From the NCBI GenBank assembly GCA_947460385.1, contig CANHGT010000002.1, forward strand, positions 1 through 60,314: 60,314 nucleotides of DNA, read 5' to 3'. This document shows positions 18,685-43,800 of this stretch, one piece after another (within the stretch, counting starts at the first letter, position 1; each line of letters starts with the position of its first letter). The DNA is from Alphaproteobacteria bacterium (GTDB lineage Bacteria; Pseudomonadota; Alphaproteobacteria; WRAU01; Hepatincolaceae). Below the pieces are notes generated by a model. It made no database searches and was not told the DNA's origin. It worked only from the letters and a program-made list of their open reading frames with translations. The translations under genes and the position numbers were made by a program.

Positions 18685-20463
18685 TTAAAATGCTCTTTTA
18701 ATTACAACTCTAATGTTCGTATCGCTACAAGACAAAGGGGCTTTGTAAGTGCCGGGACCATCTCCTAGATAATGAGACGATGTTTTGTCTGATGTTGAAG
18801 GAAAATATATTTGAATTACACTTTCTGTAAAGCTATATTCTAGACCCTCTAATGATTCATCAGTTTTTGTAGGATTTCTAATTGGACTGTGCGTAGCAAA
18901 TTGATTTTTTGATGTAATTGTTGTTGTTATTGCAGATGGAATTACTAGCTGGCTAGTAATATTGGTAAAAATAACATTGTTGCCAATTCTATTGGGAATT
19001 TCTGTAAACGCATTTGCTTTTAATTGTAAATTGCACGAGTAATAATCACCATGACAATAATTGTTCAAATATTTAATAGCACCTGAATCATTGAACTCTA
19101 CCTGCCCAATATATAATCTATTTATGGCTTGCCCACTACTGTTGTACATGGTCATTGTTGGAATATGAAAAAAATCTGCCCCTGCAATATAGCTATCTTG
19201 GTCCCATAGTAATGCTTTAGAAATCAGTGGATTAAAACATAAGTAAGAAGGTGTTTTATCTGTATAGCCAAAAGATATATTATTGCTCATTAAATCGGCA
19301 TAAATGTAGTATTTTTTATTAACCTCGGTAAAATTAATATCATAAACACCGCTATATTGTTGAATGATTTTTTTATTATTATTAGAGAAGCATAGGCTTA
19401 ATGGGGTTTTAGTACAATCTACAGATACTATCTTAGCATTTTTATATATTATGTGATTAGATGTGGCATCTGTTCCTATGGGTCCTGAAATAATAATATG
19501 CAATGCACCATTATATTCATTATTGCTACTTTGTTTGGCAATAAAATCATCTAATTTTTTATTTAAGCTATCTATTGCAGTTTGTACAGTTTCAGAATTT
19601 TCTAAGTGGCTACTTGTGTTACTATATAGTATTCCTGCACTTTCTGATAATTGATTCACCGCATCTTGTAAAGTTGTACCATCAATATTATCATGAATAA
19701 CCGTAATATCTTTAGAATCAATAGGTAAGGTAATAATATTGTTGCTTTTTTCAATTAAATAATTAAAGCCTTGCTCGGCATTACTAATAGATAGGTCGGT
19801 CTTTTCATAAATTACCTTAGAGGCATGGATATTTTCTATAGCACCACCCCCGCCTTCTCCACCTCCACTACCCTGATTGTTAAATAAATCATCTAAGGCT
19901 TCTTTAACATTGGATATGTTACTGCCATGACTATATAAAACTTTATTGGCTGTGATGCCTGAAAAATCTATTCCTCCTGTATTCATAAAATCTACTAATG
20001 TGCTTAGTGTTTCATCTATATTATAGAAGGAATTACTTAATTGATTATTACTCCATAGTAAGGTTTTACCCTCTTCTGCTTTAGGAAGAAAAAGGTATTC
20101 ACCTTCTAAGCTTACAACTGTTTTATCTAAAATATTTTTAAAATACGTTTGATTTCTAAACACATTATCTAGTTCTACATTTAAAATATCTGCACGAATT
20201 TGGCTTATATTATCAAAGCAGGTTTGTCTTTTTACTAGAACATCTTTTTTTAATAAAACTGTTACAGGATTGTTCACTGTGCCTATAATTTGGTGAAAAA
20301 CTACTTTCTGCCCATCTTTGCCAAAATCTTCTAAAGCGTATTCTGTATTAGAAACTAATATGGCATCTATGAATACTTTTAATTCTTCTATATAACTTAA
20401 TTGCAAAGGACATTCAAATGTTTTCTGTCCTTTACTTTCATATATAATAAACTCTTCATTCAT
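18685..20463 (-). CDS. Phage tail fibre-like protein
   Basis: A 592-residue protein, the last gene of the phage structural module. The first 130 residues resemble the N-terminal attachment domain of T7-type tail fibres: ECPLQLSYIEELKVFIDAIL, then VLLKKDVLVKRQTCFDNIS and a helix with repeated N-Q-x-Y. A glycine-rich linker (QGSGGGEGGGG) separates it from a long Ser/Asn/Thr-rich beta region. The C-terminal part (about 320-592) would be the variable, receptor-binding part. The start has two purine-rich sites upstream (AAGGAATAAGGTA). Attachment role is inference from gene order and N-terminal pattern. Confidence 0.65.
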   Translation of the reverse strand: MNEEFIIYESKGQKTFECPLQLSYIEELKVFIDAILVSNTEYALEDFGKDGQKVVFHQIIGTVNNPVTVLLKKDVLVKRQTCFDNISQIRADILNVELDNVFRNQTYFKNILDKTVVSLEGEYLFLPKAEEGKTLLWSNNQLSNSFYNIDETLSTLVDFMNTGGIDFSGITANKVLYSHGSNISNVKEALDDLFNNQGSGGGEGGGGAIENIHASKVIYEKTDLSISNAEQGFNYLIEKSNNIITLPIDSKDITVIHDNIDGTTLQDAVNQLSESAGILYSNTSSHLENSETVQTAIDSLNKKLDDFIAKQSSNNEYNGALHIIISGPIGTDATSNHIIYKNAKIVSVDCTKTPLSLCFSNNNKKIIQQYSGVYDINFTEVNKKYYIYADLMSNNISFGYTDKTPSYLCFNPLISKALLWDQDSYIAGADFFHIPTMTMYNSSGQAINRLYIGQVEFNDSGAIKYLNNYCHGDYYSCNLQLKANAFTEIPNRIGNNVIFTNITSQLVIPSAITTTITSKNQFATHSPIRNPTKTDESLEGLEYSFTESVIQIYFPSTSDKTSSHYLGDGPGTYKAPLSCSDTNIRVVIKRAF

Positions 20464-20474
20464 TACCTTATTCC

Positions 20475-20801
20475 TTATATTGCACTTTTAATAAAATCTA
20501 AAATATGCCCAAAATCAAAACCTTGCTTACCTTTTTTTAAAGATTCCAAATATTTTGCCTTGGCTTGTTGCAATGCCTCGTCCTTTGCCTGTTCTAGCTC
20601 ATTAACTGTTTGTTCATGTTCATAATTCTGGGCAAATAGTAAATCATCTTTTGTGCCTCCCATTCCACCTTTAATATTGCTGTTTTTCACTTTAGATTGT
20701 TTTTCTATATAGTCTTTATCTATGTCATATAATGCTTGGGTAGACTTAGCTAAAATATTATCTTGTTCCGACTTGTACCAGTCTTTAAATCTTGGAAACA
20801 T
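20475..20801 (-). CDS. Phage module protein, unknown function
   Basis: A 108-residue hydrophilic, helical protein with repeated Lys/Glu/Gln heptad-like segments (EHEQTVNELEQAKDEALQQA). It starts after a good AGGAG site and lies between the tail tubular protein and the tail fibre gene. No family recognised; a small virion or chaperone-like protein is possible from position. Confidence 0.6.
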   Translation of the reverse strand: MFPRFKDWYKSEQDNILAKSTQALYDIDKDYIEKQSKVKNSNIKGGMGGTKDDLLFAQNYEHEQTVNELEQAKDEALQQAKAKYLESLKKGKQGFDFGHILDFIKSAI

Positions 20802-20825
20802 TGTTTCTCTCCTATTGTTTATTAT

Positions 20826-22853
20826 TTAATTGGTTGTTATAATAGCTTTAATAAATAAAACATTCATAGATTTAGGAATATCTTGCTGTAGAGTAATATT
20901 TGGGCTAATATGCCAAGGAAAATCTACAGATACACTTTGAATATGGCTATTCTTTGTACTGTTCACTAAACTCATATTAAAAATATCTTGCATTCTATAG
21001 CTATTGTTATTATCTACTATATTCAAATTTCCTGAATTGATGGTTCCTATGTAAATATTTTCAATTTTTTTATTAAGCCCATATGTTGAACTATCTAGTA
21101 TTAAGTTTTCTAAATGTTGGCTTGCATAAGTTGAATCAAAGTTATAGCCAACAATAACATCTTGATTACTGTATGGATTCATTAGTTCTACTTGGTTATC
21201 TTTTACAAGCATTTTACCAAAATAAATACTATTGTCTGCCGATACAATAGATATATTCTCATTGTTAAAGGTAGTTAAATCATCAATTGTTTGGCTATTT
21301 AGCTGGTGTTTTTGGTAACAATCTAAATAATAATTTTTATCTATATTGCCATATTTGTATAAATGCACAAAGTCTCTAAAGCTAATCATTTCTAAGCACT
21401 GATAATTAACTTCATTAATTTGTCTGTCTAATCCTAAATAAAGAAACTCTTGTTGTAATTTATACCCTGTGGCAATATCATCTATTTTGTTATTACCACC
21501 TAATTTATGAGAAGACCATGCTACTTTAGTGGCATTATTTTCTTGCATAAGTGTTCCGCATAGTAAATCACCATTTTCTAAAATCACCCATAACATATTA
21601 AATGGATATTTAACACATACAATATTTTTTATTGGGCTGATAAATAAATGTAATGCTTGTAAATTAATATGTTCTTCTTGCAGTATTTTGTTTTCTACTA
21701 TATAAACACAATATAAATGATTTTTATGATAATTACTGTAGAATGTTTTATCACCATCACTATAAACAACAGATGATGTGTTCTGACTACTAATTTTATT
21801 AATATTGCAATTTAGTGGAGAAATAGCTTCATCTACATTCAAGGCAGATAAACTAAATATACCCTCTTGGCTACCAATAAGTAAACTATCTTTACTAGAA
21901 TTAAGCCACATAATGCTTTTACCCTCACTTATTGAGGTAGAAATAGCATTTTCTTCACTAATTATATCTGTATTATCTACTGTGGTTGTTGGGGCAAAAT
22001 TATTATATTGCCATAAATTAGATACCCAAATTGATGTACTATTATCAAGTGTTTTAGCGCAATATAGACGCCCATTAAAAATACAAGCTAATGATGGATA
22101 TCCTAAACTTTTACACCATAAAGATTTACGAAAATATTTAGTTGCACCCAGTGATTTTAATGGCTTAACCTCTACAGAATATACTATTGCTGTATCTCCA
22201 TTAATATGGTCTAATTTTAGAACGCCCCAATAATTATCATGGAATACCCTTAGCAGTTTACCTGAATCTTTACTAGAAAAATAAGTAGTAGTGGCTGTTA
22301 TTTTAATTTGATTTACACCACCAATTGTAATTCTTTCAAAACTTAGGCTTATGTCTTGAGTATTTATTTTATCGTATGGACCATCTTCAATATTAAAATT
22401 TTCAAGAATAAATACATGATTATCTACAAGCTTTATCACTTTTGGTTCAGTATTTTTCTCAAAAAAATAGATCATATTATTAACATCATCTACTACCCAA
22501 CATAAATTTTTAACCGCTTCTGTTTGCCAAGAATGGTTTATTGTGTAATGACTACCATTAATAAGAAGTGGTACATTATTTTTATAAAAATATAATGTTC
22601 CGGGGGCAATATCTATCACAAAAACATCGGCTTTATATTGAAAACTTATTAATCTTCTGCTCATATTAGAGATAGTAAATATATTAAGTAATTCACTTCC
22701 CGGACGTCTAGTGATTGCACCATAGGTGGTAACAATTAAATTAGAAATTTGTTTAGCTGTTTCCATATATATAATATTTTTATTAAAATATGAACAGTAA
22801 TCACTTACCTCACCATGGGAAAAACCTGTAATTTCAACATTGAATTTTTTCAT
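20826..22853 (-). CDS. Phage tail tubular protein B-like (gp12-type)
   Basis: The ATG at 22853 is preferred: AGGTG lies 4 nt upstream and the protein then begins MKKFNVEITGFSHGEVSDYC. This gives 675 residues. An in-frame upstream start at 22892 would overlap the previous gene. NIIYMETAKQISNLIVTTYGAITRRPGSELL is the characteristic opening of podovirus tail nozzle proteins (T7 gp12 type: fixed contact residues then RRPG). The rest is beta-rich, consistent with a propeller-like nozzle. It is preceded by the gp11-like gene, the same order as in T7-like phages. Confidence 0.75.
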   Translation of the reverse strand: MKKFNVEITGFSHGEVSDYCSYFNKNIIYMETAKQISNLIVTTYGAITRRPGSELLNIFTISNMSRRLISFQYKADVFVIDIAPGTLYFYKNNVPLLINGSHYTINHSWQTEAVKNLCWVVDDVNNMIYFFEKNTEPKVIKLVDNHVFILENFNIEDGPYDKINTQDISLSFERITIGGVNQIKITATTTYFSSKDSGKLLRVFHDNYWGVLKLDHINGDTAIVYSVEVKPLKSLGATKYFRKSLWCKSLGYPSLACIFNGRLYCAKTLDNSTSIWVSNLWQYNNFAPTTTVDNTDIISEENAISTSISEGKSIMWLNSSKDSLLIGSQEGIFSLSALNVDEAISPLNCNINKISSQNTSSVVYSDGDKTFYSNYHKNHLYCVYIVENKILQEEHINLQALHLFISPIKNIVCVKYPFNMLWVILENGDLLCGTLMQENNATKVAWSSHKLGGNNKIDDIATGYKLQQEFLYLGLDRQINEVNYQCLEMISFRDFVHLYKYGNIDKNYYLDCYQKHQLNSQTIDDLTTFNNENISIVSADNSIYFGKMLVKDNQVELMNPYSNQDVIVGYNFDSTYASQHLENLILDSSTYGLNKKIENIYIGTINSGNLNIVDNNNSYRMQDIFNMSLVNSTKNSHIQSVSVDFPWHISPNITLQQDIPKSMNVLFIKAIITTN

Positions 22854-22860
22854 TATGCAC

Positions 22861-23427
22861 CTAATTCCTAGCTTGTATCCATGTTGGTTCATCTAACTCT
22901 ATATAATTACTAATAGCTCCTTCTTGACTGTCTAAATCTAAAGCTTCTTTATATTCCCTGTTATAACATTCTTGCAAAAAGCCAATTAGAGTACTATTAT
23001 CAAAAAAACTATAAGATAGCTCCACTGCCATTTTACAAGCTATGACATTTGCCACATTAATACTTAAAAATTCCTCATCAACATTGGCAATATAAAGCAA
23101 TTTTATTATTTCACTATTGTGATATATGTACTGACCATCACGATGATAATTAGTATTGCCGTTGACATTAAGAATCCTTAAGCAATTTCGTGGTAAAAAG
23201 AACTCATACTTATAATCTAATTTATAATTTGTAGTTTTTTTGCTAGATAGTTCTAAAGTTTTAATAGCACATTTCCAAGAATATTTACTTAATACCTCGG
23301 CTTTAATCATTGGATATAAAAATTTGCAATGTGATGCTTCTTTGCTATCTTCATTTAAAGATGTAATCATATTCTGTTTTATTTTTCTTAAAGCACGATT
23401 ACAAATATCAAGGTCTGTATAAATCAT
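22861..23427 (-). CDS. Phage tail tubular protein A-like (gp11-type)
   Basis: A 188-residue protein opening MIYTDLDICNRALRKIKQN, then a long helix and YSWKCAIKTLELSS, followed by YKYEFFLPRNCLRILNVNG. This layout (A-L-x-x-I near the start, W-x-x-A, then Y-x-Y-x-L-P-x-D/N-C-x-R) is typical of podoviral adaptor/tail tubular protein A. It starts after AAGG and is directly followed by the gp12-like gene. Confidence 0.75.
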   Translation of the reverse strand: MIYTDLDICNRALRKIKQNMITSLNEDSKEASHCKFLYPMIKAEVLSKYSWKCAIKTLELSSKKTTNYKLDYKYEFFLPRNCLRILNVNGNTNYHRDGQYIYHNSEIIKLLYIANVDEEFLSINVANVIACKMAVELSYSFFDNSTLIGFLQECYNREYKEALDLDSQEGAISNYIELDEPTWIQARN

Positions 23428-23533
23428 GGTTGTTACCTTTTTTCTTATAAAATGAAGGAGATATGAATATATCTCCCCCTTTTATTTATTAAATATAATT
23501 ATAATAATTGGTTAAATTTAGCCTTTTTTATAG

Positions 23534-24436
23534 TTATTCACCCTCTGCTTTTGGCTCTTCAGCACATGAAATGCTAACTACTTTTTTTTCGTCCATTCTT
23601 GATGCCCCACAAGATAAAGAAGCATATACTTGGGTAGCCATACGTTTATCTGCCCTTACGCTGATATCTGTTTTAATGTCTCCTGCTGTGGCAAGTAATA
23701 ATCCCGATTTTGCATAACAGAAAATTTCTCTAATATTATCTGTTTTTGGCAACATAGAAGAGCTGATTCTTTTAAAAGTAAAGCCCATAAAAGTATTAAT
23801 TTTACCATCTACTAATGCTTTTACCGTATTATAATCTTCTGATGTTACCTCAGTAGTTCTTAATAAATCACTCACTTGTTTTGCGGTAACTATACAATAT
23901 TGATCTTCGTCATCATCTACATCGGCATCATCTAGCATCTGTCTGGCTTGCCTTAATTTGGCTATAGTTAAACCTGTTTCAACACCAGCATTCTCTTCAA
24001 AATCTACTATGATTTTTTGGGAGTCAGGCAAAGGTACTGTTGTTTCACCCTTGCTTCCTGTATAGGCATTACCGAGTGCGGAGGTTATAATTGATTTATC
24101 TTTAGCTCTACCTAGGGCATATGAGGCATTTAAAGCATATGCTGATGTTGGATCTGTTAAAAATTTTAGTTGGTCGGTTTTATCTATTAAATCGCCCCAA
24201 TCCCATGTGGTTAAATTGATAACCCTACGATCAAACTCGGTGGTTAAAATTGGAGTATCACCATTTCTGCCTGATACTTGTTGTGCTTCTGTTGGGGCAA
24301 TACTATCATAAGAATATCTTTCTGTATTTTGAATCTCTTCTCTAACACAGCTTGATAACTTTGAACCTTTTTGTTGTAAATTTAAGGATACTGCCATGTT
24401 GTATCCTTCTTTCATCATATCTGATATATTACTCAT
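23534..24436 (-). CDS. Phage major capsid protein
   Basis: A 300-residue protein between a scaffold-like gene and the tail genes. It has a helical N-terminus, then RRVINLTTWDWGDLIDKTDQLKFLTDPTSAYALNASYALGRAKD, a pattern seen in podoviral and Pelagibacter-phage-like capsid proteins of the Phage_capsid type. The middle part contains an acidic DDADVDDDEDQY loop and the C-terminus is beta-rich. A good AAGGAG site precedes the ATG. The call rests on position and pattern. Confidence 0.75.
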   Translation of the reverse strand: MSNISDMMKEGYNMAVSLNLQQKGSKLSSCVREEIQNTERYSYDSIAPTEAQQVSGRNGDTPILTTEFDRRVINLTTWDWGDLIDKTDQLKFLTDPTSAYALNASYALGRAKDKSIITSALGNAYTGSKGETTVPLPDSQKIIVDFEENAGVETGLTIAKLRQARQMLDDADVDDDEDQYCIVTAKQVSDLLRTTEVTSEDYNTVKALVDGKINTFMGFTFKRISSSMLPKTDNIREIFCYAKSGLLLATAGDIKTDISVRADKRMATQVYASLSCGASRMDEKKVVSISCAEEPKAEGE

Positions 24437-24466
24437 CTTTTTATCTCCTTGGTATTTTTTATTTAA

Positions 24467-25063
24467 TTAACTATTGTTTTTGCTTATTGTTTCATGAAAC
24501 ATATTTAATTTATTCATAATTTTTTTATGTTCCGGGTGGCTTTTATTATAAAGTGCTTCCAAGTTTTTTGGATTTTTAACAAAATTATCTCGTTGTTTAA
24601 TAGCTTCTTTTTTAGACATTTGAAAGTTATTAACATCTGTTAACTTAACACTTCTGTCTTCAGATAACATCTTACCTAAATTAACCATATGATTAATAAA
24701 AGCAAATTCATCAACCTGTGATACATCATCTAAATCATTGATGTTAAGCCAAGATAATCCACGTTTTGCAAAAATAAGATTGCTTTCATAACTATCACCC
24801 CATGATTGTTCTAATTTATTAGCCAATATTTCTTGCTTATTATTTTCATGCTGATGATTCACGTAATTGTTATGAAATTCTTCTACTTCTGCCTTCATAA
24901 TTACTTGTTGTTGTTCTGATAATTCCAACTTAATGGCTAAATTTTGTAAAAATTCTAGCTCTACAGCGTTTAAAATCTGCTCGTTAACAACCTCATTACT
25001 TGGCAACACACTAACTTCTACTGCTAGCTCTTCATTGCCTAGACTATTTATTTCAGTATTCAC
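24467..25063 (-). CDS. Phage scaffold-like protein
   Basis: A 198-residue, acidic, helix-rich protein that begins with GTG at 25063 after a strong AGGAGGAG site. Glu/Gln/Asn-rich helices, no hydrophobic core motif, and its position immediately before the capsid gene fit an internal scaffolding protein of a podovirus-type head. No sequence motif proves it. Confidence 0.6.
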   Translation of the reverse strand: MNTEINSLGNEELAVEVSVLPSNEVVNEQILNAVELEFLQNLAIKLELSEQQQVIMKAEVEEFHNNYVNHQHENNKQEILANKLEQSWGDSYESNLIFAKRGLSWLNINDLDDVSQVDEFAFINHMVNLGKMLSEDRSVKLTDVNNFQMSKKEAIKQRDNFVKNPKNLEALYNKSHPEHKKIMNKLNMFHETISKNNS

Positions 25064-25076
25064 TTACTCCTCCTTT

Positions 25077-25355
25077 TTATATTTTTTTAGATAATTCAAT
25101 AACCTCATTAACATCTAAATTTGCCATTTCTAAAATATGCAAATATACGTCCCTAGCACCTTCATTAAAAAAGGTTTGCTCTTTATCTTTAGGAACAAAA
25201 CTAGACTTATTAAAGTTACAATAGTTAGCTAGGTCTTTAAGAACGAAGATCACCGCTTGATCTTCGCTGTTAAATACATTTTTCCATGCTTTGCTTGCTT
25301 CTTCGGCTTTTTGTTTACCAAACAGTAAAAATAGCCAAGTTAAACCGTTTTTCAT
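25077..25355 (-). CDS. Phage module protein, unknown function
   Basis: A 92-residue protein (MKNGLTWLFLLFGKQKAEEA...) with a hydrophobic start and charged helices. It has an AAGGAG site and sits between portal and scaffold genes. No family recognised. The spacing to both neighbours is short, which supports a real gene in the operon. Confidence 0.6.
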   Translation of the reverse strand: MKNGLTWLFLLFGKQKAEEASKAWKNVFNSEDQAVIFVLKDLANYCNFNKSSFVPKDKEQTFFNEGARDVYLHILEMANLDVNEVIELSKKI

Positions 25356-25358
25356 AAA

Positions 25359-26855
25359 TCACTCCTTATTGATTTTTTGATTAATAATATTATTAGGTAA
25401 TCCATTCCCTGCTACAGTTAAGTTCATAACCTCTTCCCAATTAACCATGTCTTTAATTCCTGCATCATACTGATTGATGTTAGAAATGGTGCTATATAAA
25501 TGATTTAGCCCTAAACTGGAAGATAAATTATTATATCTATCCCATGGACCAAAAAAATCTACTTCAACATCTAAAGCACTTATTTTGCAAGGTGTTTGTG
25601 GGAATAAATTTAGCCGTAACATAACAGCAAACAGTCTTTTTAATAGTGGATATAAAAATTCTGTTTGAATTCTAGCAATTTTAGGTCCTAAGATACGCAG
25701 TTTTTGTTCCTCGTTGGTTAAAACTTCCGTAGCTGTGGCATTCACTTTATAATTACTTAGAAGTAAATTGTAGTAAAACGCTTCTTTAATTGCTTCACGC
25801 CTTTGCTCTTGTAATTCATGGGAATTACTGATATCACCGCCCATCATTAATGGTTTAATTAATTGATTACCCGTTAAAGGATCTACCCCACCATAAATAA
25901 TGCCACCGGGATTTGCTTTAATGCCTTGAATAGATGCTTCATTTGGTGCTAAAATAGGTGGATCAATTTGTTTTTGAGCTGCAATTAGCATAGTTTTAGA
26001 CATAGCATTAATCATTTTAATATCAGGCAAAGATATTGTGGCTGGTGATTGTCCATAGTCTTGATTTGAATTGGTATACCACCGTGCAATCATATAGGGA
26101 AATTCGTAATAACCACTTTGTAACACTATGCTATTATCTTCTGTATCTATGTATATTGATGAAAATTTCATACCCTTCATAATGGCAAGCTTATCATTAA
26201 AATACTTAGCAGGTATAGTTAGGTGTAAAAAAATATGGGTATCTTCTTTGCCCTCTTTATAAGTTTTACGAATTACATTAGATAATTTATCTAAACCAAA
26301 AAACTCAACAGCCTGTGTAGTATTCATGGTAATAGATTTAACAATGGTATCTATGTTATGATAAGTTTGATGAATAAAGGATTTGCCTAAATGTTCGCTT
26401 TGGTAAACTATTTTTTTATTTGATATGTCTTCACCTAAATAAAAAATTGCTGTGCCAAAGCATACTAAATCGGCATAAAATTCATAAGACTTATAATAAA
26501 AGCCTGAAGAAGCATCACTTAAGTTATCTTTCATAAGTTTATTTGCAGAAGAAAGCCAAGATAATGCTTCTTCATTCTGTGCTAAATTTTTATTGGAAAA
26601 TTTCAAACCAAACCAATTACCCGCAGATGAGTTTACCAAAGACCATAACCCTGAAATAAGCATCTCGGAACTTCTTGAGGCAGTAGCATCATAAATTTCC
26701 TTGCTGTTGCCACCACTCTGTGGATTCAAAGATCGCTGTGGTCTTACATAGTCTACCACCTGTTGCCAAATATTTTCTAATGGTGCCCGCTCTTCTTGTA
26801 ACTTATCATACAATTTAATTGTATAATCAATGATTTTTTGATGATTATTTTTCAT
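25359..26855 (-). CDS. Phage portal (head-to-tail connecting) protein
   Basis: A 498-residue protein. LQEERAPLENIWQQVVDYVRP, then YDATASRSSEMLISGLWSLV and NWFGLKFS, is the conserved opening of podoviral head-tail connector proteins (T7 gp8 type). Later KANPGGIIYGG, an alpha-rich wing and PLLKRLFAVMLRLN agree. The portal ring is the DNA entry channel and terminase docking site. It follows terL and precedes the head genes, the canonical packaging order. Confidence 0.85.
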   Translation of the reverse strand: MKNNHQKIIDYTIKLYDKLQEERAPLENIWQQVVDYVRPQRSLNPQSGGNSKEIYDATASRSSEMLISGLWSLVNSSAGNWFGLKFSNKNLAQNEEALSWLSSANKLMKDNLSDASSGFYYKSYEFYADLVCFGTAIFYLGEDISNKKIVYQSEHLGKSFIHQTYHNIDTIVKSITMNTTQAVEFFGLDKLSNVIRKTYKEGKEDTHIFLHLTIPAKYFNDKLAIMKGMKFSSIYIDTEDNSIVLQSGYYEFPYMIARWYTNSNQDYGQSPATISLPDIKMINAMSKTMLIAAQKQIDPPILAPNEASIQGIKANPGGIIYGGVDPLTGNQLIKPLMMGGDISNSHELQEQRREAIKEAFYYNLLLSNYKVNATATEVLTNEEQKLRILGPKIARIQTEFLYPLLKRLFAVMLRLNLFPQTPCKISALDVEVDFFGPWDRYNNLSSSLGLNHLYSTISNINQYDAGIKDMVNWEEVMNLTVAGNGLPNNIINQKINKE

Positions 26856-26889
26856 ATTTTATTAATCTCTTTATTACTTTTATTTATAT

Positions 26890-28491
26890 TTACCAATCAA
26901 ATGGATTAAACTCATTATTAGATGAACTAATATAACTTTGCACCTTATATTCCTGTATTGCATCTATAGCAAAGGTTAAAGCGGCTGCATCTGCACCATC
27001 GGGTGATTGCTTAATACGTTTTTTTAACTGTTCCTTCTTTTCTAACTGTATTTGTCCATTTGAGGTATAGGTGTATTCTAGGGAAGATAATTGTTGAAAT
27101 AAGATGCTATCTTCTACAATAAAATTCTCTAAAGATAAAAATTCTTTTAAAGAACACCACAATTCTGCCCTTTTATTCAAATACTTTTGCGGATTAACCG
27201 ATTTAGAGGCAAAATGTATAAGAACAATATTGTTATAACCTAATTCTTTTAAACGATCATACACCCCAACCCCACCACCGCCTGCATCTATACAAACTTT
27301 ATATGGGTTAAATTCTTGTATATATTTTGCAATCCAACCTACAATTTGCATGGTATCTGCCATATTAACTTTTTCATTCACATTAAAACCTAAAAAACTG
27401 CCTTGACGATCTATAATCCATGAAAAATCGCCTCCACCCCTTGCAATATCTACGCCAAAAATAATTTTCTCTATTTTTTGTTCATTTAAAAATTGATTCC
27501 TTATTTTGTTACTAATACTATCACCTAAATGAAAGTTTTTATCTAATGCCCTACTATGTAACAGCTCAAGAGGTATCAAAATATTATATTTAGAATACTT
27601 AAAGGCTTCTGCTAAACTAGCAGGAAATTCTTTATAAAATGCAAAACATGGTCCAACCGTAGGGTCTTCACCTGTATTTGTACTAAGTAATAAATTCTTT
27701 TTATAAGCCCAAAGCAATTGTTCCGGGCTTAAATTATAATGCTTACTATAATTTAACCAGTTTTCGGAATATTTAATATCTGCTACTTCTTTTACACAAT
27801 AATTTTCATGCCAAAACCAAGGAATAAAAATTACTAAAAATTCACTTTGCTCCTTTTGTGCCTGCATACACATTTCATAAAATAAGCCCTCTGGTCCACT
27901 TGATGTGCTTTCAAGAATAATTTCTGTATTATCTGAATCAGGTATTGCCGCCATAATAGAAAGAAGATGATTATTTGCATTCTTCCAAAATGCTACCTCA
28001 CTGCCATGAAAATATTGGATAGTTTCCGAACGGGCAACATCTATACCTCCTGCTGTGGCAAACATAATGGAACTATCTAGGTCTGTAAAATCTATTAATT
28101 GATTTCTACGAATTGTACTTTCTGGCTTCATATCATCTTCACAATAATTGTAATATCTATTAATAATATCAAAAACATTATTAGTAGCTGTTTGCCTATG
28201 AGTTAAAATTAATGCTCTGTAGCCTTCATAGGTAATACAATTGTAGTACGAACGTGCTGCTAACAAGGTAGTAATGCCTATTTGTCTGCCTTTTAAAATT
28301 AACGCTCTAACCCTTCCTATTCTTTGTTTTTGCTCATTTAAAGCATCTATTATATATTTTTGCTCTCTGTTCAACTGAAATGGCTGTACTGCGTTGCTTT
28401 TTGTTCTAATATATAACGAACTTTCTACAAATTCTATGAAGCTAACCTTATATTTTTTCTTCTGTGTCTTTTTCTTACCTTTTTTTTTCAT
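26890..28491 (-). CDS. Phage terminase large subunit
   Basis: A 533-residue packaging motor protein. The Lys/Arg-rich N-terminus is followed by a deviant Walker A, LKGRQIGITT (66-75), a Q-motif-like NREQKYIID upstream, and IILEST as the Walker B with catalytic Glu. The C-terminal RNase H-like nuclease starts IIFGVDIARGGGD and continues KVCIDAGGGGVGVYDRL and GADAAALTFAI, giving the expected acidic triad. All catalytic positions look intact. First gene of the phage operon; no small terminase is visible upstream. Confidence 0.88.
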   Translation of the reverse strand: MKKKGKKKTQKKKYKVSFIEFVESSLYIRTKSNAVQPFQLNREQKYIIDALNEQKQRIGRVRALILKGRQIGITTLLAARSYYNCITYEGYRALILTHRQTATNNVFDIINRYYNYCEDDMKPESTIRRNQLIDFTDLDSSIMFATAGGIDVARSETIQYFHGSEVAFWKNANNHLLSIMAAIPDSDNTEIILESTSSGPEGLFYEMCMQAQKEQSEFLVIFIPWFWHENYCVKEVADIKYSENWLNYSKHYNLSPEQLLWAYKKNLLLSTNTGEDPTVGPCFAFYKEFPASLAEAFKYSKYNILIPLELLHSRALDKNFHLGDSISNKIRNQFLNEQKIEKIIFGVDIARGGGDFSWIIDRQGSFLGFNVNEKVNMADTMQIVGWIAKYIQEFNPYKVCIDAGGGGVGVYDRLKELGYNNIVLIHFASKSVNPQKYLNKRAELWCSLKEFLSLENFIVEDSILFQQLSSLEYTYTSNGQIQLEKKEQLKKRIKQSPDGADAAALTFAIDAIQEYKVQSYISSSNNEFNPFDW

Positions 28492-30317: not shown

Positions 30318-30484
30318 GCCCACATTTTCAACTCCATATTTTCATCTTTTATAGTCTAAGCTAATAAAGACTTAGCTATATCAATAATAGACAAACTCCC
30401 TATGGTAAAATGATATTTGATTCACCATGTATCATTAAATTATCATTTTTTCTTAAATATATATGAACTATTCAGCCAAGAAAA

Positions 30485-30547
30485 CGAAACCCGTCCTAAA
30501 GCACCGAGAAACCGGTCTTGGAGTGCCAAGAACCGTCTTGGAGCGGG
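30485..30547. repeat. GC-rich 22-bp imperfect tandem repeat / possible structured RNA
   Basis: Three related units start at 30486 (GAAACCCGTCCTAAAGCAC), 30508 (GAAACCGGTCTTGGAGTGC) and 30530 (GAACCGTCTTGGAGCGG), a 22-bp period. The stretch is about 58 percent GC in surroundings near 30 percent. It can fold into CCCG/CGGG enclosing GCAC/GTGC and a perfect CCAAGA-ACCG-TCTTGG hairpin. It lies about 70 bp beyond the distal end of the CRISPR array. Neither a protein nor a known RNA family is recognised. Confidence 0.5.
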
Positions 30548-30616
30548 TAATTGTAAACTAGTGTATTACCTCCCCCCCTATTTCAGTTGTAAAAAGAAGA
30601 TTATACATAAGTTTTG

Positions 30617-30784
30617 TGGGTAGTGCGGTTCATTTCTTCACCAAACTACACCATAACAGAAGAAGAATATAGAAAAAACATAGGCATAGTGCGGTTAATT
30701 TCGTAACCAAACTACACCAAAAAACAAAACGGCAAAAATAGTGAATTAGGCATAGTGCGGTTAATTTCGTAACCAAACTACACC
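30617..30784 (-). CRISPR. Minimal CRISPR array: three 36-nt repeats, two 30-nt spacers
   Basis: Repeats lie at 30749-30784, 30683-30718 and 30617-30652, with an exact 66-nt period; spacers are 30719-30748 and 30653-30682. The first two repeats are identical; the third differs at 6 of 36 positions, three of them in its last four bases, as expected of a leader-distal terminal repeat. Read on the minus strand, the repeat starts GGTGTAGT, has an inner hairpin GGTTA-CGAAAT-TAACC and ends ACTATGCC, so its ends pair with each other through eight positions (two G-U). A 36/30 arrangement is typical of type VI (Cas13) arrays. The direction, minus, rests on the promoter at 30864-30892 and the degenerate distal repeat. 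Read on the plus strand the repeat would end AAACTACACC, somewhat like Cas13a/d repeats, so orientation is not fully certain. Confidence 0.9.
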
Positions 30785-30863
30785 TATTAAGATGTAGTAC
30801 ACATGCCAACCCTTGCTAAAAGCTTGGGCTTTGAAATTTATTTTGCAATAATCTCACAAAAAA

Positions 30864-30892
30864 ATTGTAATATTTTATAGAAATAATGTCAA
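30864..30892 (-). promoter_or_regulatory. Promoter/leader of the CRISPR array
   Basis: On the minus strand, TTGACA (30892-30887), exactly 17 nt, then TACAAT (30869-30864). It begins just after the stop of the Cas13-like gene and points into the array, giving a leader of about 70-75 nt before the first repeat at 30784. Confidence 0.8.
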
Positions 30893-30895
30893 TTT

Positions 30896-32704
30896 TTATT
30901 CATTTTTTTTACATTGTTTGCTATTTTCATACTCATATAATTGTTTTATTAGTCTGTTTGCAATTTTTACTAATACGTAATTTTTATCATTTTCTTGGCT
31001 AGTATCACATTTATGCATTTTATAATTAAGATTTTTAATGATTTCTCCATTTTTAATGGGTAACTTTAGCCTTTGTAATATCGCATTAACAGCACTATTA
31101 AATTCATTAAGCATTTTATTGGCTTCAGAGCTTGCAAATAAATTTTCTATCTCTTCTTGAATAATTATAAAAACATTACTATATTCGTATAATTTTGTAT
31201 CTTTATTATATGTGGTGTAATCTATAAACCAAAAATTACTATGAAATAAATTATCTCGTAAGTTTTTTATATCGCCATCTAGTTCTTGCTTACTTTCTAT
31301 TTGTTTTATAAAGGAACGCATTACTGCCCCTAGCTCTAGGCTGGTAAAATAAAATTTAACTATATAAGAAAATTTATGGGTTGTTGTATCTTTGTTACCT
31401 AGTAAGTATTTTCGTATTGTATTTACTGTTGTTTGACCGCCTATAAAATACCACTGTTGTTTAAATTTGAAAGCACTTTTATAATTTCTTTCTATAAACA
31501 TTGCATCATCTTGTTTGTATTTTTCATAGGCTTGATACCAATCTTTTGGCTCTCTTGCCTTGCCTGGTTTATTATTATAACCATTTATATAATGTATACG
31601 AAGATTCTTTTCTTTTACTAATAAATCATGCTCTTTTTGGGTGATTTTATTTGCAGAACGAACATGTTTCTTACTTGCATTAGCTTTGCTTGTATATTCG
31701 CTGATTAAATACTTCATATACTGGCTTTTTAAAAATTTTACTACATGGTTTATATTATTTAGATATGCCCTATGGGCATTAGCCTTTATATTTGTGTCTT
31801 TATTTTTTTTAAAAAATGAGTAGGTTTTATCTATAAATAATTGATTTAATTCGTTCGGCAACATACAAAACATATAAACAATATATTTTGTAAGATATTT
31901 CTTAAACTCTTTTTCCCCCTTTTTTTCTGGGTGTGCAAAAAAATGTCTTACCTCCTTAAAAACTTTGTGAATTTTCCTAAAAGATTCATCTGTTTCTTTT
32001 ATTGGTATAGCATGCATCTCATCTAAATATTTTTTATACTCTTCATCTATTTCCTTTTTATATTTCTCTACAATTTCATTATAGTTATCTTGATTATTCT
32101 GGGTATCTTGTTGCTTAGAAGCTTGCTTTTTAACGAAAAGTTCCATAAATAGACTAGCTTTACTATCTGGACTAGCTGGTTTTATGCTTGTGGGAAAATA
32201 TAGTAAATAATTAAGCTTTATATCATTTATAAAATCATTGGCACGAGCTTTTCTATTTATATTATCTTCACTATTTTCAGTATTACTATAAAATGAAAAA
32301 TTATATAATGTGGTAAAAAATCCTAAGTAAGAATCAAATATCTTGCCGTTTTTAAAGTTATTATAATTTGCATAGTTATTGTCTTTATCTTTTTCTTTTA
32401 ACCAATCATCTATGGTTTTATAATTTTGACGATAATTTTTTAATTCTTCATCTTTCTTAGTTGATAATATTTTTTTTAAATCATCATCTGTAAAGGTATC
32501 TATATTTATACTTAGCAATTTATTTCTTTGCTGAACTTTTTTATATCTGCGTAAAAATATAGAGACAAGAGATTTATTTATAAGTTCTAAGTAATATTCG
32601 CAATAAGAGGCAAAAGCTGGATATTTTGTAACTATAGTACAAAAATCTTTAAAAAATTGATCTTCTTTATTTGCATTTTCTGTATTTTCTACTTTTTTAT
32701 TCAT
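30896..32704 (-). CDS. Compact Cas13-like (type VI CRISPR) two-HEPN RNase
   Basis: A 602-residue, Lys/Tyr/Asn-rich protein. It has two R-x4-H motifs of HEPN ribonucleases: EVRHFFAHPEKKG with R253 and H258 (codons at 31946-31948 and 31931-31933), and NLRDNLFHSNFWF with R483 and H488 (31256-31258 and 31241-31243). In Cas13 two such HEPN domains form one composite RNase site, activated when a crRNA pairs with target RNA. The CRISPR array with 36-nt repeats lies 112 bp downstream on the same strand, which makes a Cas13-type effector far more likely than a lone HEPN toxin. It is much shorter than Cas13a/b/d (about 900-1300) and than Cas13X/Y or Cas13bt (about 775-800). The ATG at 32704 is chosen because AAGGAG lies upstream; a GTG at 32767 would add 21 residues but lies within a hairpin. 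No cas1, cas2 or csx gene accompanies it. Subtype cannot be assigned by eye. Confidence 0.85.
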   Translation of the reverse strand: MNKKVENTENANKEDQFFKDFCTIVTKYPAFASYCEYYLELINKSLVSIFLRRYKKVQQRNKLLSINIDTFTDDDLKKILSTKKDEELKNYRQNYKTIDDWLKEKDKDNNYANYNNFKNGKIFDSYLGFFTTLYNFSFYSNTENSEDNINRKARANDFINDIKLNYLLYFPTSIKPASPDSKASLFMELFVKKQASKQQDTQNNQDNYNEIVEKYKKEIDEEYKKYLDEMHAIPIKETDESFRKIHKVFKEVRHFFAHPEKKGEKEFKKYLTKYIVYMFCMLPNELNQLFIDKTYSFFKKNKDTNIKANAHRAYLNNINHVVKFLKSQYMKYLISEYTSKANASKKHVRSANKITQKEHDLLVKEKNLRIHYINGYNNKPGKAREPKDWYQAYEKYKQDDAMFIERNYKSAFKFKQQWYFIGGQTTVNTIRKYLLGNKDTTTHKFSYIVKFYFTSLELGAVMRSFIKQIESKQELDGDIKNLRDNLFHSNFWFIDYTTYNKDTKLYEYSNVFIIIQEEIENLFASSEANKMLNEFNSAVNAILQRLKLPIKNGEIIKNLNYKMHKCDTSQENDKNYVLVKIANRLIKQLYEYENSKQCKKNE

Positions 32705-32738: not shown

Positions 32739-32776
32739 AAAAAAGGTAGGTTTAAATTAATAAACACTACCTTTTT
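32739..32776 (-). terminator. Hairpin with T-run in front of the Cas13-like gene (terminator or attenuator)
   Basis: Ten-bp stem AAAAAGGTAG/CTACCTTTTT with an 18-nt loop; on the minus strand it is followed by seven T residues. It can end the transcript of the lipoprotein gene (ends 32834). A TATAAT lies at 32786-32781, so a cas13 transcript starting near 32774 would begin inside the same hairpin. Confidence 0.65.
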
Positions 32777-32833: not shown

Positions 32834-34009
32834 CTAGTTATTTGCTTTTTTCTTTTTATCTGTACCTTTTTTTGCCGTACTCTTACCCTTAGCAGGAGCT
32901 TTTTTCTTTGCTTTAGCTTTGGTTTTTACGGGGCTTTTCTTTGCAGTAGATTTACCTTTTACCGCACTTTTCTTAGCACTAGATTTAGCTTTTACAGGGC
33001 TTTTTTTAGATGTAGACTTGCTTGCTGTAGCTTTTTTAGGGGTTGCGGTTGCTTTGCTTGGAGTTGCCGATTTACTTGTTACACTAGGGACAACAAGCGG
33101 AGCTACCTTTGTTACTGCAGTCTCTACAGGTTTTACACTTGCAACATTATTTTTAGGTAAAAAATCAGGTTCTTCTACAGAAGAGTCTTGTTTCTCTTTG
33201 GTATCTTCTTGAGATTCTAATTTAGCATCTGATTTTTCTACTACAGAAACCTTTTTAGTGTCTTTGATAGTTAAAGCATCTATACTAACAACGTTAAAAT
33301 CACTATTTAATGTTAATAAAGATACATAATCTTTCACAAATATTTTATTTGGAGTTGATGATGGGTTACTATTAACCTCATCTAAAACATAATCGGTGCC
33401 TGTATTTTGAACATATAAATATACTATACTTTCATCGTCAACTAAGTCTTTTTTTGGATATTCCTTAAGATGAATCATATAGCAAGCAGGAGTACTATCA
33501 TCTTCTGAGCCATCTTGTAAGCAATTAGATCCTACCCCATTTAATTTGATTTCATTATTATGCAATAAAAAAGCTCTTGATGTGGTTGTGTCAACTACAA
33601 CTCCATCTTTATTTTTTATGAAAGTAATATATTTAGTAAGTGGATTATATGGCTTAATTACATCTTCTATTAATAATTCACCCAGTACTAATACTAGATA
33701 ATCGCCGTTGTCTAAATTTTGTACAATTTTACCATACATAAAAGAGCAATTACCTTTATAATCTAATGCTTTTGGTGAACTTTGAAAAATGTCTCCCGTA
33801 TTAGTACATTGATACGATGTAGCAATTTCTTTTATAATACTTTGTTTGCGAATAGAATCTTTTTCATTGTTATTGAAAGTAGCATCTAAACTTCTTAACA
33901 ATTGTCTTTCTGCATCTGCTTTTGTTGGGCTTTTAACTGCTTCTTCTGTGGCACAACCACATAAAAAAATAAACCCTAAAAATAATAAAATTGTACATTT
34001 GAAATTCAT
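32834..34009 (-). CDS. Lipoprotein with histone H1-like C-terminal tail
   Basis: A 391-residue protein. The signal peptide ends in the lipobox LCGC with the acylated cysteine at 19. A soluble part of about 230 residues follows, with a short cysteine-containing segment (YQCTNTGDIF, GNCSFMYGK) but no motif I recognise. From about residue 305 the sequence becomes almost entirely Lys, Ala, Ser, Pro and Thr, with repeated KKSPVK and KSTAKK units like eukaryotic histone H1 tails, ending KKKKANN. Such a tail would bind nucleic acid or anionic polymers. Since the protein is exported, binding to LPS, extracellular DNA or host chromatin-like targets is conceivable; none is shown. The low-complexity tail is prone to length change. 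Confidence 0.7.
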   Translation of the reverse strand: MNFKCTILLFLGFIFLCGCATEEAVKSPTKADAERQLLRSLDATFNNNEKDSIRKQSIIKEIATSYQCTNTGDIFQSSPKALDYKGNCSFMYGKIVQNLDNGDYLVLVLGELLIEDVIKPYNPLTKYITFIKNKDGVVVDTTTSRAFLLHNNEIKLNGVGSNCLQDGSEDDSTPACYMIHLKEYPKKDLVDDESIVYLYVQNTGTDYVLDEVNSNPSSTPNKIFVKDYVSLLTLNSDFNVVSIDALTIKDTKKVSVVEKSDAKLESQEDTKEKQDSSVEEPDFLPKNNVASVKPVETAVTKVAPLVVPSVTSKSATPSKATATPKKATASKSTSKKSPVKAKSSAKKSAVKGKSTAKKSPVKTKAKAKKKAPAKGKSTAKKGTDKKKKANN

Positions 34010-40199: not shown

Positions 40200-40880
40200 T
40201 TATCCTTTAAACCCTTGTGCCACCAAATAAATTTCTTTAGACTCTTTACGGCTAGCAGGAGGTTTAAAATGATCTACCTTTTTAAATCTTTTTTTAATTT
40301 CATTTAATAATACGGTTTCTGTACCACCTTGAAATACCTTGCAAACAAAAACTCCATCAATATCTAAAACTTCAAAAGCAAATTGCAGGGCTAATTCTAC
40401 TAGGGCAATAATACGTAAATGATCTACCGACCTAGAACCCGTAGTATTTGGTGCCATATCACTTAATACCATATTTGCCTTACCATCTAACAATTCTTTA
40501 ACTTCATTTACCACTTTGCTATCTGTAAAATCACCCTGTATGCCGTGCATATAAGGTACTTCATTAATTGGTAATAAATCAACAGAAATTAACTTAGATG
40601 TTACATGGGGAAAAATTTTATTGGCAATTACTTGCGACCACCCACCCGGTGCTGCCCCAACATCTACAACTTTTACCCCTTTTCTTAAAATAGAATATTT
40701 GGCATCTATTTCTATTAATTTATAAGCTGCACGAGAATGATATCCTGCTGCTTTAGCCGAATGTACGTAAATATCATTTAATTGACGCTTTAACCATATT
40801 TGTGAAGATAACTTCCTTTTCTTATTAGGATTCAAATTGGTTTTTAAAGTATTTTTTGTAAGAGAGTGTAATTTTTTCAT
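40200..40880 (-). CDS. rlmE: 23S rRNA 2'-O-methyltransferase RlmE (FtsJ)
   Basis: A 226-residue Rossmann-fold methyltransferase acting on U2552 of 23S rRNA. Signature residues include SRAAYKLIEIDAKY with the catalytic lysine, VVDVGAAPGGWSQV for AdoMet binding, VLSDMAPNTTGSRSVDH and VCKVFQGG with the second lysine, and SRKESKEIYLVA near the end. The KDKE-type tetrad appears complete. It is preceded by a basic N-terminal extension of about 25 residues. It overlaps or abuts the autotransporter stop at 40880. Confidence 0.93.
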   Translation of the reverse strand: MKKLHSLTKNTLKTNLNPNKKRKLSSQIWLKRQLNDIYVHSAKAAGYHSRAAYKLIEIDAKYSILRKGVKVVDVGAAPGGWSQVIANKIFPHVTSKLISVDLLPINEVPYMHGIQGDFTDSKVVNEVKELLDGKANMVLSDMAPNTTGSRSVDHLRIIALVELALQFAFEVLDIDGVFVCKVFQGGTETVLLNEIKKRFKKVDHFKPPASRKESKEIYLVAQGFKG

Positions 40881-43800
40881 TAAAATATAAACCTTAAATT
40901 AAGACTAATGTCGTGATTTATGTAAGAGTTAGGCACTGTAACTTCCATACCATAACCTACTGTGAGTCCAAAACCATTTTTTTCATACCCTATAGATATT
41001 TTAGATTGAAGGCGTGGTTCGTGGTAACCTGAACCGGGCATTTCAATATAGTATTTATCGTCTATACCTTTCCACTTAAATACTGTATCTATATCATTAT
41101 AAAAGTATTTTACAACCCCTACAAACAATTGGGTTTTCCACATAGCTCTTTCTACGCCTAAAAATTCTTGAACCAAGGTTTCTTTGGCAAAATCAAAGCC
41201 CCCACCTACATCATATAAGTTGACATTTAATTTGTCAAAAGTATAAGCAAAACTAGCGTGTCCTTCATTCCAAGATGGTATATACACATGTGAATAGCCT
41301 CCAAAAATTTTAGGAGTTATTTGCACATCTAAAAATGTTTCTAAAGCAACACCCATTTCTATACGGCTAGCAAATTCATTTATAAGCATATCTCCTTTGG
41401 CTGCAAACTCTTTATTTGCAGTAAAATCATTCACCATCCAAAGTAACTCTCTTGAAGTGTTGAAATTATTCAAGCTATAAAGACCAGATAAATTAATGTA
41501 TCCATAATTCATAATATAAGATAAAGAAGCAGATATATTAGAGCCTGCAATTGAGGCATCGTAATTAGACTTTCCATCTATAGCACCTAATTGCAAGCCT
41601 GTGGAAATAGAGCCATTAAGATTTTTAGCAATGTTGCCTGTTAGCCCTATTTGAAAGCCCGAGTTAAATCCACTGTATCCTACGCTATAATCTTTAGTAT
41701 TTAAAAAATTAAAACTATTGATATTTTCAAACCATACTTCATATTGATGAATACCATAATACTTGCTAGTTTGCTTAGACATAATTTTAAAAACATTATT
41801 AATAGCATTATGATTAAACAAAACCATAGCTTCCATTGAAAATGGCTTAAGTTCACTAATATGATTAGCCAAGGTATTTAAACAAGGGTTATCCCAATCG
41901 TTAAATTCCTCGCCCCCCGTATGTGCACCATTTATCCACTCGCCCTCACTTGGTCCACTTGGTGCAGGACACAGGGAGTTATAATCTAAAGAATTGTAAA
42001 TATCTTGCATGGCATCTGTTACATCTTCATTTTCTACTGCCATATCTAAGCTATTAGCAATATCAATGCCTAAATCATCTCCCCAACCAATACCTTTTAG
42101 AATATCGGTATAATTTATTAAACGATTAACATAAAAACTTACTGTTTCCCCTTCAATATCAATTGGAATCTGGGTACATTCACCATCTTCTTCTAAAGGT
42201 TTACCATCTGCATCGCAAGTTTCTGGGTTATCTACTAAAATTTCACCATCAACAATATTTAAGCCAATATCTGTATTTAACCAAGGTGGTGCAAAATGCA
42301 TGCCAAACAAGGCTTCTTCCGCCGCATTACTTAGGGCATCATTAGCAATTTGCTTACATTCATCGCTCCAATATCTAAAGTTCTCTGTTGTTGCAGGCTC
42401 ACCCTTAGTTGTAGTTTGACACATAGCATTATTACTAAACACAGTAGTTAAGATGCCTTTGGTATCTACAAGATTAGTTTTACCATCTTTTACTTGAATA
42501 ATATCAAATTGATTTCTTTCACCTACTTTAAAAATACTTGTTTTATCAAAAACAACTTTCACATTATTTGGGTCTATAATTGGAACCTCGGTATTTAAAC
42601 AATGGTCTCCTGTTTCACCAGGTGCACAGTAGTCGAACTCTGCCTCTGGGTCGGGATCAAAAGTTCCTGAACCTGTATTTGGGTCGCTATAGTATCCTTG
42701 TGTTCTATCGCAGTCTGGATCTTTAATATCACACCTGTATACACCGTATTGATCTACAATCATAGAGCCGTAGTCTTTAGTCCATGTACCATCTTCATTT
42801 TTTACACCTAGCTTATCTATGTGAAAAATAATTTTTCCCCTGCTATCACTGTTGTTTTGCAAAGAAACAATAATACATGGAGTTGGATTTTGTACATTGT
42901 CTGGATTTGGAAGTGGTGCTACTCCATCGTTAGGGTCATCATCGTATATTGGTTGATCCGTATAGGGAACACAATAGGTTAGTGGGTCTGTTGGTAAGGT
43001 AGGATCATATCTTTCAAATTCAGATGGCGAATATATAATAGTTAAGCCATAATTATTAAAATATCTTACATTAACATCTGTTTTCATAGTTGTAACACCT
43101 AAATTAATTAGGTTGTCTATATATATTGTTCCCTCTAGTACTAACCTACCATTGTCTCCATAAAAAACGTCTTTAGGCATATAACCATTAACCCCTAGTG
43201 GGTCGTCCCTTTCGTGCCAATTGCTACCGTCTTTACATTTATCGGGATCGCTTGGATCTGCCTCACACACAAAATCTGTATGATTAACATATGAACCCTC
43301 ATTAAAGATTTCTTTAATGCCTTTATCTTCCTTGCCTTGACTTCCACGAATCTCCATAAGCCCACGAGAACCATTTCTAAGCCTTACTTTAGATGGGTCG
43401 GCAAATACAGATCCTGCATCTTCTGCTATGGAAAAAGTAGAGCCTGCACCAACAAACATACCATAATGACACTGAAAGCTTAAACTATCTCCTGCTGCAT
43501 TGTAAGCTTGATCTCCTTGATAGTACGGATTATACACCCACTCCCCTGTAGGTTCTCCTGTTGCAATATCTATTCCTCCCTCTTGATAAATAAACTGGTC
43601 ACAAATACTACCGTCTCGCTCATAACTAATTTCGTCTTGCATCCATCTAAAATTCATAGAACCGCCCGCACCCTCGCCCTCTATAAAAATTGAAGAATTT
43701 ATTAAATTGATTAAATTATAAAAACCACTAATTTTGTTAGTATGAAGCTCTGAATCGTACAATTGTAACATTCCATTATATGAAAAAGTATCTTTCACTA

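Follow-up and report, generated by a model that had tools for sequence, protein, structure and literature searches.

Within the window analysed here, a 60,314-nt stretch of contig from an alphaproteobacterial genome assigned to the Hepatincolaceae, a short repeat-spacer array lies next to an open reading frame that is a candidate compact cas13 gene. Read on the minus strand, the array comprises a leader-proximal repeat 1 (30749-30784; 36 nt, GGTGTAGTTTGGTTACGAAATTAACCGCACTATGCC), a 30-nt spacer 1 (30719-30748), a repeat 2 identical to repeat 1 (30683-30718), a 30-nt spacer 2 (30653-30682) and a terminal degenerate repeat (30617-30652) with 6 changes in 36 positions. The exact 66-nt period (66 and 66 nt from start to start), the pair of identical repeats, the diverged third copy and the two spacers described in the original prediction were all confirmed by the coordinates, with repeat and spacer boundaries uncertain by 2 nt because the repeat identity runs 2 bases past the 36, to 38 nt. 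The description of the diverged copy as a terminal degenerate repeat is likewise supported: its changes fall at positions 14, 16, 22, 33, 34 and 36 (minus-strand numbering), so that its end is indeed altered, but three of the last four bases have changed and not all four as had been stated; its hairpin is still predicted, at -12.3 kcal/mol. Repeats 1 and 2 are the sole exact 30-mer duplicates in the window, and the array repeat occurs as a single array in the whole genome (1.09 Mb, 66 contigs). Repeats of about 36 nt with 30-nt spacers are as expected of a type VI locus, in support of the earlier reading of this array as Cas13-type. Protospacer searches for both spacers yielded nothing convincing, the candidate matches, which were A-rich and had E values of 0.2 or worse, being rejected; the repeat-like pattern found no match in viral contigs, and an Rfam search of the locus returned no family.

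The candidate cas13 gene (30896-32704, minus strand; ATG start, 602 aa) is co-directional with the array and ends about 111 nt before repeat 1. Its open frame extends to a GTG at 32767, which would give a protein of 623 aa; this start is unlikely because the GTG is covered by a terminator-like hairpin with a T run (32740-32776, minus strand) that separates the gene from an upstream lipoprotein gene. The likelier start is the ATG at 32704, which has AAGGAG ahead of it. The predicted lipoprotein directly upstream (32834-34009) has a long lysine/alanine-rich C-terminus and no confident family match. By motif match, the 602-aa protein carries a HEPN1 catalytic motif, RHFFAH (R253-H258; 31931-31948, minus strand), and a HEPN2 catalytic motif, RDNLFH (R483-H488; 31241-31258, minus strand), spaced 230 residues apart, with 252 residues ahead of HEPN1 and a C-terminal stretch of 119 aa after the second motif. 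When the protein sequence is shuffled, a pair of RX4H motifs turns up in 4.7% of cases; the stricter form R[NHD]xxxH occurs twice in 0.15%, and twice at a separation of 200-260 residues in 0.03% (3e-4). The second residues of the motifs, H and D, both satisfy the published HEPN rule RphixxxH (PMC12373285). At the motif level, the locus accordingly has the type VI hallmark of one effector that carries a pair of HEPN RX4H motifs.

Searches for relatives of the 602-aa protein found no match in Pfam, NCBIfam, PADLOC or PDB sequences and none in plasmids, phages or viral contigs. A scan of GTDB r220 with one genome per species, which detects close relatives only, was also negative, as was a search of 94, 385 and 398 whole genomes of the same family, class and phylum (partly overlapping sets), whose weak matches were attributable to chance. 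The PADLOC and NCBIfam Cas13b models did not match the protein, and the NCBIfam Cas13b profile NF038190 matched nothing in this genome even at an E value of 1; the positive control, a PspCas13b sequence, scored 1e-197 with PADLOC and 1e-219 with NCBIfam. According to its authors, Cas13an is likewise missed by profiles (PMC12165695). AlphaFold2, run without relatives, reached a pLDDT of 37 for the full-length protein and 45 for the C-terminal domain, models too poor to use, and the PDB structure search started from them, which returned no fold match, is meaningless. Since structure prediction failed in this way, the HEPN identity of the putative effector stays at the level of its motifs. The evidence base is a single locus, with no conservation or covariation signal available.

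The strand from which the array is read, a question on which the original prediction had not decided, counting a plus-strand repeat of Cas13a/d type among the possibilities, is largely answered in silico. Promoter position, the strand-specific fold, the position of the degenerate repeat, the purine skew of the spacers and, above all, a leader-repeat hairpin are five lines that favour the minus strand and the guide-repeat order (spacer 5', repeat 3') of Cas13b and Cas13an. On the minus strand the repeat folds at -14.5 kcal/mol with 14 pairs (z -4.3; 0 of 200 shuffles equal), against -8.6 kcal/mol and z -2.0 on the plus strand, where it folds less well because two G-U pairs turn into A-C mismatches. 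The repeat ends do therefore pair with each other, as had been proposed, in a strand-dependent manner; the dumbbell in which they had been placed keeps this end pairing, but its shape is that of one extended hairpin interrupted by a small internal loop. A promoter-like site, TTGACA-17-TACAAT (30864-30892, minus strand; 11 of 12 consensus bases), lies 80 nt upstream of repeat 1 and is weak evidence alone, because weaker matches abound in this AT-rich region (48 with at least 9 of 12 bases, where 38 are expected). No good plus-strand promoter was found near the left end of the array, and the degenerate repeat sits at the end distal to the promoter-like site. Both spacers are purine-rich on the plus strand (23/30 and 24/30), as expected if minus-strand crRNAs target coding mRNA; with the genes of the window as proxy, the likelihood ratio of coding over template strand for such a skew is 13 for one spacer and 42 for the other.

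The leader RNA, as defined by the predicted promoter, would span 73 nt (30785-30857, minus strand) and end in ...GGCATGTGTACTACATCTTAATA. Within it, the arm GGCATGTGTACTACATCT (30790-30807, minus strand) is predicted to pair with both arms of repeat 1, GGCATGTG with the 3' arm and TACTACATC with the 5' arm, engaging 15 of the 16 outer bases of the repeat (8/8 on the 5' side, 7/8 on the 3' side). The 92-nt leader-repeat fold reaches -31.6 kcal/mol (z -4.9); folded together, leader and repeat reach -35.7 kcal/mol, against -14.0 and -14.5 separately, a joint gain of about 7 kcal/mol. Equally good pairing was obtained with 6 of 5000 shuffled leaders (p ~0.001) and, among the remaining 73-mers of the window, with 3 of 4128; when disruption of the repeat is instead scored by summing the probabilities of its native pairs, 1.6% of shuffled leaders are as disruptive as the real one. 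Repeats 2 and 3, folded with their own spacers, retain the native hairpin at 98-99%, and no leader pairing is predicted on the plus strand. In the VI-B2 system of Porphyromonas gingivalis, a leader-repeat hairpin keeps the first repeat from being processed, a step that would yield an extraneous crRNA in guide-repeat systems; such hairpins are predicted in VI-B/BtA/E/F/G/H/I, are not above chance in VI-A and are not obvious in ancestral type VI (PMC13187072). The hairpin predicted here thus supports the guide-repeat order and sets the locus apart from the ancestral type VI group as described in that study.

The same genome holds a complete type II system with a cas9 (1198 aa), a Neisseria-type cas1 and a cas2, the genes lying on contig C25 (L007 11673-16499) and the array on contig C22 (L031 2430-4015). 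This array has 24 repeats (GTTGGAGTTTGAAACTTTTTTTAGATATGCTATAAT) and extends to the end of its contig; each repeat contains an embedded TATAAT and folds poorly (-2.5), and the embedded TATAAT together with the gene order suggests a II-C system. The window itself has no recognisable cas1 or cas2, and type II systems occur in trans in 4 of 10 Cas13an genomes (PMC12165695). The type II array has the same 36/30 geometry, but its repeat and that of the window agree at 16 of 36 positions, so the two arrays do not share a repeat. Their first 12 bases match at 9 positions (p 6e-4, uncorrected and post hoc), and in the type II array (genome G001) the degenerate repeat stands at the 5' end, which apparently gives it a leader polarity opposite to that of the window array; as the match is post hoc and the polarity opposite, we do not claim shared adaptation. 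Elsewhere in the genome, an Abi_2 (AbiD/F) family gene was found (L016 / L035, contig C8, bases 1-609), with no abiF RNA motif near it by Rfam; Abi_2 is a HEPN family proposed as the ancestor of Cas13. Within the window, phage structural genes (tail proteins, major head protein PF19821, head-tail connector PF12236 and terminase large subunit) occupy 18685-28491 on the minus strand, about 2 kb from the array and flanked by host genes; no replication or lysis genes were recognised in this cluster, which is either a prophage remnant or a domesticated particle cluster. Left of the array, 30480-30550 is GC-rich with degenerate repeats (CCGGTCTTGGAGTGCCAAGAACCGTCTTGG) and a plus-strand fold of z -2.4, and at 40880-49985 lie two adjacent very large ORFs of 1693 and 1344 aa, the second ending in an autotransporter beta-domain. 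The three family genomes compared do not have the PGK neighbourhood in common with this genome, so synteny did not reveal the insertion site.

Compared with known Cas13 systems, the locus resembles Cas13an in its very small effector, its 36-nt repeat and 30-nt spacer, the guide-repeat order deduced here, the absence of cas1/cas2 in cis with a type II system in trans, and in being missed by other Cas13 profiles. The spacing of 230 residues between RX4H motifs is close to the 236 of Cas13an2 (R127/H132 and R363/H368), whereas the candidate, at 602 aa, falls just beyond the published Cas13an range of 429-577 and has 252 residues before HEPN1 against 126 in Cas13an2, about 126 extra (PMC12165695); it also differs in its predicted leader-repeat hairpin, none being obvious in ancestral type VI (PMC13187072). 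With type VI-B and Bt Cas13b (Cas13X/Y) it would share the guide-repeat order, a long repeat hairpin and a predicted leader-repeat hairpin masking the first repeat. The effector, at 602 aa against 775-1100 aa, is nevertheless much shorter, shows no similarity to Cas13b profiles and has no csx27/csx28 neighbour that we could see; by size and by sequence this putative protein is no canonical Cas13b. Its motifs are 230 residues apart, against several hundred in type VI-B; in PspCas13b, LwaCas13a, RfxCas13d and Cas13X.1, several hundred residues separate the motifs. Cas13j is alike in its miniature size class and its guide-repeat order (PMC13187072), although the reported proteins are smaller (LepCas13j 529 aa, ChiCas13j 424 aa; PMC12709928), a comparison made by description only. 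The same holds for type VI-E, the miniature Cas13e of the 2025 classification, where it is described as smaller than any other Cas13 and as an intermediate of early date (PMC12669027); Hu et al. 2022 (PMC9554183) use the name Cas13e for different proteins. By analogy with these systems, the best reading is that the candidate would work like Cas13b and Cas13an. We assign it neither to Cas13b nor to Cas13an: it escapes the Cas13b profiles, and its predicted hairpin speaks against membership of the ancestral group in its published description.

Other explanations of the locus have to be weighed against a type VI system of guide-repeat order. The array and effector could be transcribed from the plus strand, with the repeat 5' and the spacer 3' as in Cas13a/d, and the repeat then ends in AAACTACACC, which loosely recalls those systems; beyond this ending, nothing further of the proposed resemblance stood, although the plus-strand repeat still folds at -8.6 kcal/mol and the 119 aa after the second motif are nearer to Cas13a/d than to Cas13b. 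We consider such an orientation very unlikely, given the weaker fold, the lack of a good promoter near the left end and of any leader pairing, a degenerate repeat that would become leader-proximal, and leader-repeat hairpins that in VI-A are not above chance (PMC13187072).

It is just as improbable that the array is an orphan or belongs to the type II system of the genome, the adjacent ORF being unrelated and its RX4H motifs fortuitous: the shared 36/30 geometry, the common bases at the start of the repeats and the lack of homologs of the ORF would fit this, but the type II repeat otherwise differs, with its embedded TATAAT and poor fold, the window repeat is absent elsewhere in the genome, a motif pair at Cas13an-like spacing is rare, and the leader-repeat hairpin fits a guide-repeat type VI system. 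A somewhat less remote, though still unlikely, variant of the type VI reading is a decayed or inactive Cas13 remnant with a short array in which spacer acquisition has ended, as the mere two spacers, the small genome and the lack of cas1/cas2 in the window might suggest. Against decay stand the intact ORF with both motifs, the two identical repeats, the promoter-like site and the leader hairpin, and Cas13an loci, too, are known without cas1/cas2 in cis (PMC12165695).

Judged from its sequence, the locus is most probably a divergent and compact variant of type VI; the reading that fits best, and in which we have good confidence, is that of a compact type VI system whose crRNAs have the guide-repeat order and whose leader masks the first repeat. 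Such a minimal system would pair one Cas13-like effector, about 602 aa long, with an array of two spacers that is transcribed from its own promoter on the minus strand, each crRNA comprising a 5' spacer and a 3' repeat hairpin. By analogy with known Cas13s, the effector would bind the repeat hairpin, and pairing of the spacer with a phage transcript would join the two HEPN motifs, so that RNA is cut in cis and in trans. The leader, by pairing with both arms of repeat 1, would leave this repeat unable to form the crRNA hairpin and would avert a useless crRNA with leader sequence as its guide. Any acquisition of new spacers would depend on Cas1/Cas2 acting in trans, and the type II locus of the genome could be their source. 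The array, the gene, its motifs and the predicted folds can be read from the sequence; for the candidate effector we infer RNA guidance and RNase activity, with a HEPN fold, binding of the crRNA and cleavage, and for the locus as a whole masking of repeat 1 in vivo and a role in defence.

More tentatively, and with slightly less than even confidence, the locus may represent a new type VI subtype between the ancestral Cas13an and the larger guide-repeat Cas13s, one that would combine a HEPN core of Cas13an-like spacing with a larger N-terminal part, perhaps a crRNA-binding lobe of recent origin, and that would already have acquired the masking by a leader-repeat hairpin that is otherwise reported for systems like VI-B. 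To our knowledge, very few miniature Cas13s have been described. If the interpretation is correct, the 602-aa candidate, with its Cas13an-like motif spacing, longer N-terminus and leader-repeat hairpin, would inform both the growth of Cas13 out of small HEPN RNases and the time at which leader masking arose, and the locus would add a compact RNA-targeting effector that went undetected by every profile used here.
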